From positions 1 through 64,000 of the forward strand of contig JAGVAD010000024.1 of assembly GCA_020060465.1 (NCBI GenBank): 64,000 nucleotides of DNA, read 5' to 3'. The stretch comes from Anaerolineales bacterium. GTDB taxonomy: Bacteria; Chloroflexota; Anaerolineae; Anaerolineales; UBA4823. The first letter of the stretch is position 1, and the number at the start of each line of letters is the position of its first letter. The position numbers and the translations under genes were made by a program. The notes beneath the pieces are model-generated. The model had not been told where the DNA came from and did not search any database. It saw only the letters and a program-made list of their open reading frames with translations. This document shows positions 15,983 to 20,915 of this stretch, piece by piece.

Positions 15983-16101
15983 CTCAATATCTTTGCGCCC
16001 TTACAGCTAAAATAGAACGCCCCGCCCTGGAGGCCTGGACAAAGAAATGATAGCACAAATTCTAGATTGACGGGGAGAGTGTTTGTCAATAAAATGAACT
16101 T

Positions 16102-16584
16102 ATGCCATACCTGATTGATGGGCATAACCTGATCCCCAAAATCCCTGGGCTGAGCCTGGAAGATGTTGACGATGAACAACAATTATTGGAGATGTTGCAA
16201 GAATATTGCCGTTGGCAGCGAAAGAAAGCGGAAGTATTTTTTGACAACGCTCCGCCGGGCGGAATGCGGACGCGCAGCTTTGGGCTGGTGACGGCGCGCT
16301 TTGTGCGCCAGGGGAACAGCGCCGACGAGGCGATCCGCAAGCGGCTGATCAACCTGGGGCGCGCCGCCCGCAACTGGACTGTGGTCAGTTCAGATCTGGC
16401 GGTGCAGGCGTCAGCCCGCGCTTCCCAGGCGCGTTATCTCTCTTCCGAAGCATTCGCAGAGTCGCTTCTCCAGGTATTGGAAAAGAGGGGAAAGGATGCA
16501 GGGGAAAACGCGCAAGCGGAGTTAGCGCCCGAAGAAGTGGACGAGTGGTTGAAATTGTTCAGTGATGATGAAGCAGGGGAATAG
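16102..16584 (+). CDS. NYN (YacP-like) domain RNase family protein
   Basis: MPYLIDGHNLIPKIPG...VVFFDN, SSDLAVQ. Confidence 0.85.
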   Translation: MPYLIDGHNLIPKIPGLSLEDVDDEQQLLEMLQEYCRWQRKKAEVFFDNAPPGGMRTRSFGLVTARFVRQGNSADEAIRKRLINLGRAARNWTVVSSDLAVQASARASQARYLSSEAFAESLLQVLEKRGKDAGENAQAELAPEEVDEWLKLFSDDEAGE

Positions 16585-16649
16585 TTGGATCGTTAGAACC
16601 AACTCTAAGAGGTTTTTAATCCAAATAAGACCAAATTAGTGTATATTAT

Positions 16650-16798
16650 AGAGGCAGACACCTGCCCCCCCTTTATTGGTATATTAGGTGTCCTGTCGCC
16701 GGCGTAAAGCGTTCAGCACGTCCCCCCCGTGTTGCGCATCCGGTGGCCCTCCTAGAGATTGCCGAGCGTATTTACACACGCTCGGCAATCGCCGTTTT
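16650..16798 (+). ncRNA. 6C-RNA-like structured small RNA candidate
   Basis: TATATT/TATTAT -10 at 16642-16649; hairpin 1 GACACCT/AGGTGTC with C7 loop (16665-16671); hairpin 2 GCG-tt-CAGCACG/CGTGTTG-CGC with C7 run (16722-16728); terminator. Confidence 0.7.
16757..16798 (+). terminator. Rho-independent terminator of the intergenic RNA
   Basis: GATTGCCGAGCG/CGCTCGGCAATC 12-bp perfect inverted repeat followed by gccgttttt. Confidence 0.85.
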
Positions 16799-16811
16799 TG
16801 CTATCGTTGTG

Positions 16812-19800
16812 CTATTCAATGCGATTCTGATTTGGTTTGCGGCGCAGCACCAATAACGTCAGGTCGTCCGAAAGCGGCGATTGTTCGATAAAGTCTTGCA
16901 CTGCGCGATCAATGCTATCCAAGATGTCTTGTGCAGAGGGCTGATCCGCCGTAGATGGGGACAGACCGGTGATGACTTCTTCAACAGCCTGACGCAGTCT
17001 ATGCTCTCCAAAAGGGTCGCCTTGCGGCGAAAACGATTCTGTAACGCCATCGGTGTATAAAATAAGCCAATCTCCATCGTCCAGATTGGTGTGGCCTTCC
17101 TGAATGGGAGACTCCGCTTCCACCCCGATCGCCATGCCGCCTCTTACCAGGCGTTCGATTTCGCCGCTCTGGCAACGCGCCAGCAGCGGGGGGTTATGTC
17201 CGGCGTTCGCATAATCCAACTTGCCGCTGTTCAGGTCCAGAACCGCATAGAAGATGGTGACAAACATGCCGGATTGGGCATCTGGCACAATGACGTTATT
17301 TGCCCGTTCCAGCGCCTGCGCTGGCGAGTCGATCTCTTTCACAGTGGCGCGCAGCAAAGTGCGCACCAAAGTCATATATAAAGCAGCCGGCATCCCCTTA
17401 TCCGCCACATCGGCGATCACCAGACCAAAACGGTCGCCGGGCAATTCGAAATAGTCGTAGAAATCGCCCCCTACCTCGCGGGCAGTGAGCCAGCGGACTT
17501 TTAGATCCCAACCGGGAAGTTCTGGCACGGTTTGAGGCAGAAATGTGCGTTGAATGTCTCGCGCCAACTGCATCTCGCGCTCCAGGCGCTCGCGTTCCAC
17601 CATTTCTCGTTGCAACAGATCATTTTCAATCGCCAGAGCGGCTTGTTGAGAGATGCCGGTAATGATCTCCAGGCGCTTGTTCCGCAAGCGTCGGTTTGTG
17701 TTGCCGCTGCTAAAACCCGCGCCCGGCGCCGGTTCGGGTTCTTCGACCAGGAAAACGCCCAACACCTTGCCCTTCACCGAGAGCGGAAAAGCCAGCAGCA
17801 AACAAGCGGCGTTCTCCAAATACTCGTCTACTTTTTCCAACTCTGGAGCAGGCAAATAAGTCCATACCTCAGGCACATCTTCTGCGGCGGAAAGCTCGCT
17901 CCATAAAGGATGCGCCAACAGGGCGTCTTCGATCAACACGGCATCCAGCAATGGGAATTCCCCCAGCGCGTAGGTGGGTGTTGCAGCGGCGCGCGAGACG
18001 CCGTAGGCTTGCGAGAGGCGAAATGTCTTATGGGCTTCATCCCAAAGATAAATCAGGGCGCGTTTCACGCCCACCAGGATAGGGGTAATGCGGACGATAG
18101 AGCCGAGCGCTTCATCCAAATCGTTCGATGAAACAACCGCCTGAGCCACCTGAAGCAGCGCCACAGAGACATAAGCCTCTTCTTTCTGCGACTTGAGCAG
18201 ATTGATGTTATCTACTGCGATTGCTGTCTGGTGAGCGATTCCTTGCAGGATCGCCAACCGTTCGTCAAAGAACGCCTCTAAAGACTTACCGCTGACAGCC
18301 GCTGGGGCAACGCTGTAATCCACCAGGAAGGCTCCCAGCACCTCGCCTCGCGCCAGCATGGGCACCAATACGGTCAAACCCAAGTGGTCTGGCTGCGCCT
18401 TCTCTTCACCGGCGGTCAAAATACTGGTCAGGCGTCTGTCGTCTTGACCGCCGTGCAAGAAGACCGGCGCCCGATCCACCAACAGGCGGTCGAGGGCAGC
18501 CACATCTCCTGGCGCAAACCGCCAACGCTCAAATTCCGTTTGCTGCTCAGCATCCAAACCGGACGCAGCAGCAGGGGCAAAGTTACCATCTTCATCGAGA
18601 ATATAGAGCAGGCAAGCTTTTACACCAGCCAGCATGGGAGTGATATGGATAACCGTCGCCAACAATTCATTCAAATCGGTGATGGTTTGCGTGGCATTAG
18701 CGACCTGCAAGAGCACGGTAGATACCCAGGCTTGTTCATGCGCATCTTCGTACAGGCGCGCGTTTTCAATCGCCACCGCTGCGGAACTGGCGAATGCAGC
18801 CGTCATGGCGACCGCTTCGCTGCCATAGCGGCCGGCAGCGCGATGCGCCAGCGTCAGCACACCCAACGGCTGGTCGCCAAGCCGCAAAGGCGCGGCAATG
18901 GCGGAGTAATCCACCGGAAACCCCAACGCAGCGCCCAACGGTTCAAAGAGCGACTCAGATGAGCGGATGATAGGTTGGCTGGCCTGCAGCGCCTCTTGCA
19001 GCCAGGCTGAGGCGTTCTCCGGCTTTAAGATGCGCGGTTCGGAAAGGTTACATTCAATGACATCCTCCGGCGTCAGACCAATCTCCAAATCCAGATCGGC
19101 GGTCCCCTCGCCCTGCACCGCGGCGAGATGGAGCAGAGGCGATTGAGGAGGGTCTTCTTCGCCGTTGTGGTCTGTTAGCCAGATCGCTGCCACATCCAGG
19201 GGCAGCGTGCGCGCCAGCACGGCTAAGATCGCCTGAAGCACCTGATCCAGATCCACATCCGCCGAAAGCAGACCGGCCACCTCGCGCAAACTCTCGGTTG
19301 TCGTCCGCCGCCAGGTTTCCGAACGATACAGATACGCATTGCGCAGGGCGACGGCAATATGGTCTGCAAGCGCCTCGAATAGGAAGAGGTCATCCTGGCT
19401 GAAGGCATTCAGGCGATCGCTCTGAACATCCAGAACGCCCAGCACCGTATTGCCGAAGATGAGAGGCACGCATAGTTCCGCTTGTGTTTCGTCGGGGGGC
19501 AATTGCGAGGGGCGATAGCGCGGCTCCTGGTTGACGTCATTCGCCAGCACCGCCTCGCCATGCCGCGCCACCCAGGGGATGATCCCCTGCGGGTCGTCTA
19601 AATCGTAGGCGAAGTTTTGTTCTCGCAACGCCCGGCTGCGAGGCCCGCTACCGGCCTCATAGAATATCTTGCGCCGCCCCGAATGCACGGTGAACAGGTG
19701 TACATAAGGATGGCCAAAGCGTTGTTGGATCAACTCAACCACTTCATTTAGCAGCGTTTCTTGATCCAGGATGGAGGTGATGGCGCTGCTGACTTGATAC

Positions 19801-20915
19801 AACGTTTCCAATTGGCTGGCACGCCGACGCAGGGCATGATAGAGACGGGCGTCTTCCACCGCCATGGCGATGTTGCTGGCCAGCGCGCGCAAAACCAGCA
19901 TGTCCGTTTCGTTGAAATCATCCAGTTGATCGCTTTGCACATCCAGCACGCCCAAGATTCGATCATGGAACTTGAGCGGCAACGCCGCTTCGGAGCGCGT
20001 GCCCGGTAGCGCATCCAGATGGCGGTATAACGGCTCGGAACGAACATCTCCCGCCACGATTTCCTGGCCGGTTTGAGCGACATGTCCAATGACGCCTTCG
20101 CCGAGCCGTACAGCCAGAGACAATGTTGCAATGCCTTCCTGCTGCTCTTCATGGTTCAGCGGACTGGCCATGGCGCGGAATTTGAGCATCTGCTCGCCTG
20201 GCTCAACGGTAAAAATCGCTACGGAATAATATTTGAAGGTGTCCTGGATCAAGCGCGTGACATGCTGGGCGATTTGGTCCAGATCGCGCAAATCCACGAT
20301 CTGCAGGGTCACCTGGCGAACCAGTTGCAGTTGCTGCAACCGCCATTGCTCAATTGCAATCTGTAAACTTGCCTGCAATGCCAGCGCCGCCTGAATCGCC
20401 AGCATCTCAAGCAGTTCGAAATCTGCCCGGTTGAACGCCGGGGCATGAGAGCGTTCTACCTGAATAACGCCCAACAGGCTGGCTTTCTCTACCAAACGGT
20501 CGCGAATCAGCATCGGAGCAGCGATGACCTCCGCCTGAGTATGCTCGCCGAATTCTTCCATGCACCGGAAATCGTCCGGGCAGTTGCTCTCGCGAAAAAC
20601 GGGCTTCTGCTGATGCATTGCGTAGCGCATCAGGCGAGAGAGACGTTTGCCAGCCTTTTTACTGCGCGGCGCAGCAGGCGAGCGATCGGTCCATTGCCGC
20701 ATGACATCATCGGATAACCACAGACTGGCCTTGCCGCCCAGCAGACGCGCGGCAGTATCCACGATCAGCCGCCGTTGGGCTTGGAGCATATCCTCCGCAG
20801 GCCAGTGGTTGGCCGCGGCGTGTTGCGCCAGATGCAACACATCTTCGCCAAGCGCGAGCGCCTGGCGCAAACGATCATCAACCGGCGAAGAAAGGCCCGG
20901 CCGCACGGCGTCCAA
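16812..20915 (-). CDS. Multi-GAF SpoIIE/RsbU-type serine phosphatase
   Basis: 1367 aa; about six GAF-like blocks; C-terminal PP2C VGGDFYDYF, LVIADVADKGMPAALYM, ANAGHNPP. Confidence 0.92.
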   Translation of the reverse strand: MDAVRPGLSSPVDDRLRQALALGEDVLHLAQHAAANHWPAEDMLQAQRRLIVDTAARLLGGKASLWLSDDVMRQWTDRSPAAPRSKKAGKRLSRLMRYAMHQQKPVFRESNCPDDFRCMEEFGEHTQAEVIAAPMLIRDRLVEKASLLGVIQVERSHAPAFNRADFELLEMLAIQAALALQASLQIAIEQWRLQQLQLVRQVTLQIVDLRDLDQIAQHVTRLIQDTFKYYSVAIFTVEPGEQMLKFRAMASPLNHEEQQEGIATLSLAVRLGEGVIGHVAQTGQEIVAGDVRSEPLYRHLDALPGTRSEAALPLKFHDRILGVLDVQSDQLDDFNETDMLVLRALASNIAMAVEDARLYHALRRRASQLETLYQVSSAITSILDQETLLNEVVELIQQRFGHPYVHLFTVHSGRRKIFYEAGSGPRSRALREQNFAYDLDDPQGIIPWVARHGEAVLANDVNQEPRYRPSQLPPDETQAELCVPLIFGNTVLGVLDVQSDRLNAFSQDDLFLFEALADHIAVALRNAYLYRSETWRRTTTESLREVAGLLSADVDLDQVLQAILAVLARTLPLDVAAIWLTDHNGEEDPPQSPLLHLAAVQGEGTADLDLEIGLTPEDVIECNLSEPRILKPENASAWLQEALQASQPIIRSSESLFEPLGAALGFPVDYSAIAAPLRLGDQPLGVLTLAHRAAGRYGSEAVAMTAAFASSAAVAIENARLYEDAHEQAWVSTVLLQVANATQTITDLNELLATVIHITPMLAGVKACLLYILDEDGNFAPAAASGLDAEQQTEFERWRFAPGDVAALDRLLVDRAPVFLHGGQDDRRLTSILTAGEEKAQPDHLGLTVLVPMLARGEVLGAFLVDYSVAPAAVSGKSLEAFFDERLAILQGIAHQTAIAVDNINLLKSQKEEAYVSVALLQVAQAVVSSNDLDEALGSIVRITPILVGVKRALIYLWDEAHKTFRLSQAYGVSRAAATPTYALGEFPLLDAVLIEDALLAHPLWSELSAAEDVPEVWTYLPAPELEKVDEYLENAACLLLAFPLSVKGKVLGVFLVEEPEPAPGAGFSSGNTNRRLRNKRLEIITGISQQAALAIENDLLQREMVERERLEREMQLARDIQRTFLPQTVPELPGWDLKVRWLTAREVGGDFYDYFELPGDRFGLVIADVADKGMPAALYMTLVRTLLRATVKEIDSPAQALERANNVIVPDAQSGMFVTIFYAVLDLNSGKLDYANAGHNPPLLARCQSGEIERLVRGGMAIGVEAESPIQEGHTNLDDGDWLILYTDGVTESFSPQGDPFGEHRLRQAVEEVITGLSPSTADQPSAQDILDSIDRAVQDFIEQSPLSDDLTLLVLRRKPNQNRIE

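Follow-up and report, generated by a model that had tools for sequence, protein, structure and literature searches.

Introduction

RsaE/RoxS and other UCCC-loop small RNAs (sRNAs) of the Firmicutes direct C-rich motifs against Shine-Dalgarno (SD) sequences, and the 6C RNA reportedly acts without RNA chaperones (Mai et al. 2019). In mycobacteria, the C loops of B11/6C bind a G tract by the ribosome-binding site (RBS) (PMC10470900), and in M. marinum the terminator C-loop of B11/6C binds a G tract near the RBS (PMC12395582). The sX13 RNA of Xanthomonas has three structured stems with C-rich loops, is associated with G-rich motifs at start sites and does not need Hfq (PMC3771888). LhrC of Listeria is encoded in five near-identical copies of about 111-114 nt with short UCCC motifs, carries UCCC in a loop, in a single-stranded stretch and in the terminator, requires the two-component system LisRK for expression and can dispense with Hfq (PMC4132741).

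In the window analysed here, a stretch of 64,000 nucleotides from an Anaerolineales bacterium, an sRNA candidate of 157 bases was located at 16642-16798, where a promoter, two C-loop hairpins and a terminator can be recognized from sequence and fold. Comparison of sequences indicates that this RNA is a real, conserved and structured sRNA family of the Anaerolineales that was hitherto undescribed; neither Rfam 15 nor the searched literature, which included few subscription papers, describes a comparable C-loop sRNA from the Chloroflexota.

The closest known system in architecture is LhrC. Long-form relatives of the window copy likewise carry a C-rich motif in a loop, in a single-stranded linker and in the terminator loop, and the action of LhrC without Hfq has its parallel in the fact that Hfq was not found in 101 genomes (control positive in 5). 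In contrast to LhrC, the Anaerolineales RNA is single-copy and has longer C runs, and a regulator is suggested for it only by 11-bp repeats. Its linkage to an NYN gene is not noted in the description of LhrC consulted, the two RNAs being likened by architecture. The 6C/B11 RNAs share stem-loops with at least six Cs, whereas the Anaerolineales RNA has different stems, an anti-SD-like linker and an invariant UUUAYUGGUA, as well as another promoter, other neighbours and another phylum. sX13 differs in having 4-5 Cs per loop and shows no sequence relation through Rfam, and RsaE/RoxS differ in their short UCCC motifs and other structure, with no Rfam match here. The family is a variant of the C-loop sRNA design and, to the extent that the Rfam test can tell, arose independently.

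Architecture of the window copy

The features of the locus are compiled in Table 1. The −10-like box and the two C-loop hairpins had been reported in a first-pass annotation of the window, and re-reading of the sequence showed that their coordinates and letters were correct. The same annotation had described a perfect 12-bp terminator with U-run; the terminator is present and has 13 bp, and the U-run is also present but is offset from the hairpin by GCCG. Not covered by it were the third stem and the linker, the promoter repeats that resemble an operator, the C runs that relatives have in the terminator loop, and the NYN linkage.

Table 1 Coordinates of the features at the sRNA locus
Feature	Position in window	Strand	Basis
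Promoter of nyn: TTGACG, N17, TAAAAT; predicted start at A of ATG	TTGACG 16067-16072; TAAAAT 16090-16095; ATG 16102	+	
nyn, YacP/Rae1-like NYN RNase gene	16102..16584	+	Pfam PF05991, E 3.6e-16
Operator-like element, three 7-mers at 11-bp spacing	16603..16631 (CTCTAAG 16603-16609; TTTTAAT 16614-16620; ATAAGAC 16625-16631)	+	Conserved in 80 loci
Extended −10 box TG-TATATT	16640..16647 (TATATT 16642-16647)	+	Sequence, conserved in relatives
Predicted RNA start site	near 16654	+	
Hairpin 1: GACACCTG - C7 - TTTAYTGGTA - AGGTGTC	16657..16692 (arms GACACCT 16657-16663 / AGGTGTC 16686-16692; C7 16665-16671)	+	Sequence, fold, relatives
Outer stem P2, around hairpin 2	16697..16745 (CGCCGG 16697-16702 / CCGGTG 16740-16745)	+	Fold, covariation
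Hairpin 2, loop TCCCCCC	16714..16734 (arms CAGCACG 16714-16720 / CGTGTTG 16728-16734; C7 16722-16728)	+	Sequence, fold; 6/7 pairs change both sides in alignment A3
Linker CCCTCCTAG, C-rich, anti-SD-like	16747..16755	+	Relatives, predicted unpaired
Intrinsic terminator, 13 bp + U5, loop ATTTACAC	16757..16799 (arms GATTGCCGAGCGT 16757-16769 / ACGCTCGGCAATC 16778-16790; U-run 16795-16799)	+	11/14 pairs change both sides
GAF/SpoIIE-type phosphatase gene, convergent to the RNA	16812-20915	-	Pfam

The predicted minimum free energy was −64.3 kcal/mol, compared with −40.6 ± 3.4 kcal/mol for shuffled sequences (z = −6.96), and 0 of 200 shuffles were as good. In the predicted folds, the mean unpaired probability was 1.00 for loop 2, in which six of the seven Cs lie in the loop and the seventh is paired in the stem, 0.82 for the linker and 0.72 for the C run of loop 1, where some Cs are able to pair with the conserved UGGUA. 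The terminator loop of the window copy has no C run. In 2.4 Mb of one relative, single hairpins with a loop of C6 or more were not rare (55, vs 70-110 in Markov shuffles) and two such hairpins no more than 90 nt apart were rare (0 real, 0-1 shuffled), so that the case for the RNA rests on conservation.

Conservation and distribution of the family

By blastn, the RNA was found in 30 of 61 relatives. The covariance model R1, which was built from relatives and used for genome counts, detected the RNA in 126 of the 300 Anaerolineales genomes searched, always with exactly one match. In searches of 299 genomes of the class and 301 genomes of the phylum, matches were confined to the Anaerolineales except for one weak match in the class (G532), rejected as a family member as it comprises the terminator hairpin only, and two weak matches in the phylum, from another family (G753 and G781). 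The latter two have UUCCCCCC together with loops of C7; they could be distantly related or the product of convergence. The exact hairpin-1 pattern matched 85 stretches among 85,488 species, all titled Chloroflexota and mostly Anaerolineales, against a chance expectation of about 0.5 by our own estimate, and had no match in viral contigs. A custom model over Anaerolineae with a conservation check had been suggested in the first-pass annotation as a way of examining the candidate, and the results showed kept C loops and compensatory changes in relatives.

Two side observations were also made. In family f82 of the Chloroflexota, UUCCCCCC occurs together with a C7 terminator loop (L158 1507-1624; L159 1525-1638), a locus that is possibly a distant relative or a second C-loop sRNA. 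T-box leader and SAM riboswitches lie near the RNA in some relatives (L034 3067-3334; L047 345-440; L084 5372-5520; L035 4880-5054).

In a MAFFT alignment blind to structure, 91.4% of the cells pair, and both-side changes affect 15 of 35 pairs, with 67 cells compared with 7-13 in slid controls. The model-fitted alignment A3 gave 88 both-side cells vs 12-18 in slid controls, and a wider set with distant members, in an alignment fitted to structure, gave 241 vs 18-69; both of these alignments favour structure by construction. Covariation, another check put forward for the candidate at the outset, is strong in the helices, with both-side changes far above the slid controls, and comparison of the sequences indicates that the RNA structure is under selection. 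The hairpin-1 stem is almost invariant and hence uninformative on pairing among close members; its invariance suggests that the sequence itself is constrained.

Relatives carry up to four C-rich elements, namely loop 1 (CCCUCCC), loop 2 (YCCCCCC closed by G-C), the anti-SD-like linker ((A/C)CCUCCUUAG, occurring as ACCTCCTTAG or CCCTCCC) and the terminator loop (C7-8). The C7 in loop 1 noted previously is correct for the window genome and is a variant of that genome, since relatives carry CCCTCCC. Among 30 long-form relatives, CCTCC is present in the linker of 29, six or more Cs in loop 2 of 25 and six or more Cs in the terminator loop of 20. Short-form members have neither the linker nor a separate terminator, their U-run directly following the outer stem P2, and loop 2 with six or more Cs is invariant in 36 short-form sequences. 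The distant members (families f5 and f14) retain the promoter and the C loops. UUUAYUGGUA, at 16672-16681 in loop 1 of the window copy, is near-invariant in relatives and is retained in f14 members though their loop 1 loses CCCUCCC. UAYUGGUA is self-complementary with G-U pairs; from its sequence, it is possibly a dimerisation or protein site.

A putative response-regulator promoter

Alignment of 80 loci showed that the upstream region keeps the 11-bp-spaced repeats plus the −10 region GGTGTATATT, and column self-similarity upstream gave a clear peak at lag 11 (permutation p 0.001). The operator consensus in relatives is TTCTAAT-N4-TTTTAAT-N4-TTCGGAC. When about 1 Mb of loci was scored with the operator model, high scores were obtained almost only at sRNA loci. 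Direct repeats of 11 bp are typical of OmpR/PhoB-family response regulators, and the RNA promoter is probably controlled by a response regulator through the operator-like repeats.

Membership in the Pho regulon was rejected, as the regions before pstS gave no score with the operator model in 30 relatives; separately, one f14 genome (G049 C23 193855-199913) has the RNA some 5 kb upstream of a pstS gene. On the minus strand of genome G017 (C1), operator-like matches were seen upstream of an msrPQ-like gene (~1203200) and of csp (~1213600), with scores of 22.9 and 22.3, respectively. Co-regulation with the cold-shock protein or msrP was also rejected, each having one strong operator-like match in one genome, near chance level, and the csp match is not conserved upstream of csp in relatives.

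The neighbouring nyn gene

The NYN protein encoded upstream of the RNA also gave a weak match to the solved YacP structure 5mq8 (E 0.006). In 49 of 51 R1-positive genomes, the RNA shares the strand of the NYN gene and lies no more than 250 nt downstream of it; the two exceptions are at 251 nt and 7.7 kb. A permissive search showed two sub-threshold copies in the usual place, and another copy, clearly recognizable, 1 kb downstream of nyn; in genomes G128 and G139, the RNA is 1 and 7.7 kb away from nyn. An NYN ORF is directly upstream of the RNA in 90 of 99 independent loci, and five of the other nine have less than 520 nt of upstream sequence on the contig (contig ends). The linkage spans at least six families and the gene downstream of the RNA varies. 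In many genomes that carry the NYN gene, no RNA was detected.

A −10-like box is positioned 5-8 nt before the NYN ATG in many relatives, and nyn is probably leaderless. A leaderless nyn mRNA would have no SD for the RNA to cover, and regulation of that type was rejected for nyn on this ground.

Relation to the 6C RNA

The RNA had initially been read as a homologue or a convergent analogue of the 6C RNA (RF01066) outside Actinobacteria. Two stem-loops with at least six Cs are present in the window copy, and in most relatives loop 1 carries CCCUCCC instead of C6. The cmscan result showed no RF01066 match in the window at the gathering score and none on the element even at E ≤ 10. Among 121 genomes from the order, RF01066 matched 0, in a test that is only moderately sensitive, since the positive control, one genome (Corynebacterium glutamicum), was detected but below the cut-off. 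No Rfam 15 family matched the RNA at the gathering score, and Actinobacteria were absent from the 85 hairpin-1 pattern matches in 85,488 species. Thus, the claim of homology was not borne out, and the convergent-analogue half of the proposal is favoured over it, the build being similar without an RF01066 match. Homology to the 6C RNA, even distant, is unlikely.

Candidate target sites

The first-pass annotation had suggested a search for G-rich targets at ribosome-binding regions, and such sequences were looked for at the start sites of one relative (2.4 Mb). The result showed that runs of G6 or more were not enriched there (5 genes; control windows, 7 and 4). GGGAGGG was found at 10 start sites vs 2 and 2 in controls, and AAGGAGG at 44 vs 2 and 0, an enrichment of the kind that ordinary SD sequences would show. 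The H+-pyrophosphatase gene, the one candidate examined individually, was dismissed as a target, its GGGAGGG site not being kept in the few relatives with a readable start.

Discussion

From the anatomy of the RNA and by analogy with described systems, the locus is likely a stand-alone sRNA gene of about 145 nt (about 16654-16799) encoding an Hfq-independent trans-acting repressor that pairs via C-rich elements with G-rich or SD sites. By this mechanism, a response regulator answering to an inducing signal would act on the RNA's own promoter, and transcription would end at the intrinsic terminator. Rigid hairpins would expose the C runs of loops 1 and 2 and of the linker, and in most long-form relatives that of the terminator loop as well. 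The runs would pair with G-rich and SD sequences around mRNA start sites, blocking ribosome entry and leading to mRNA decay without Hfq, and the presence of several equivalent C-rich elements would provide redundancy and multiple targets. The retention of the C runs while the stems change is evidence for such a mechanism. Counting against it are the missing enrichment of G6 runs at start sites in the relative searched and the GGGAGGG site of the H+-pyrophosphatase gene, which was not kept; the invariant hairpin-1 stem and UUUAYUGGUA, kept where CCCUCCC is lost, are likewise unexplained by C-loop pairing.

These two invariant elements would suit contact with a protein or a fixed RNA better than pairing with variable mRNAs, and the C runs might bind protein instead of mRNA, the RNA being a sponge for a C-binding RNA-binding protein. 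However, no candidate protein is known, the anti-SD-like linker and the mixed CCCUCCC/CCCCCC suit SD-like pairing better, and characterised C-loop RNAs act by base pairing, so that a sponge is improbable. Even less probable is that the sequence belongs to nyn, as a cis-acting element or as its 3′ UTR, and is no separate RNA: the common strand and the almost fixed distance behind nyn would fit it, but an extended −10 box and operator-like repeats, both conserved, lie between nyn and the RNA, and the copies of G128 and G139 are 1 and 7.7 kb from nyn. A true but diverged 6C RNA, homologous to RF01066, is hardly credible; the stem-loops with at least six Cs and the similar length are shared, whereas RF01066 is silent at E ≤ 10 and in the 121 genomes, and matches to the RNA are effectively limited to one order of Chloroflexota.

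A partnership with the neighbouring NYN/YacP-like RNase is conceivable, if doubtful. The RNase might mature the RNA, or the RNA might recruit or titrate the enzyme on ribosome-bound mRNAs, with the C runs and the anti-SD linker steering the complex to start sites. The same-strand placement within 250 nt in 49 of the 51 genomes, the NYN ORF upstream at 90 of the 99 loci and the persistence of the arrangement in at least six families, in contrast to the variable gene on the downstream side, all argue for it. Against it stand the many genomes that have the NYN gene with no RNA detected and the RNA's own conserved promoter, and adjacency alone is no proof of function. It is unlikely that the two form one riboregulatory module, in which an SD-complementary RNA induced by the response regulator would single out SD-led mRNAs, to be repressed or to be cut by the enzyme encoded beside it, and the leaderless nyn mRNA would escape.

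The tight linkage to a predicted RNase gene offers a testable protein partner for the RNA, and the covariance model and the conserved promoter are immediate handles on the family. The design shared with LhrC, sX13 and 6C, in which C runs in loops and terminator face G-rich start sites, supports repeated origin. The family is conserved through much of its order, which is large, consists mostly of uncultured bacteria and gave no match in the search for Hfq.
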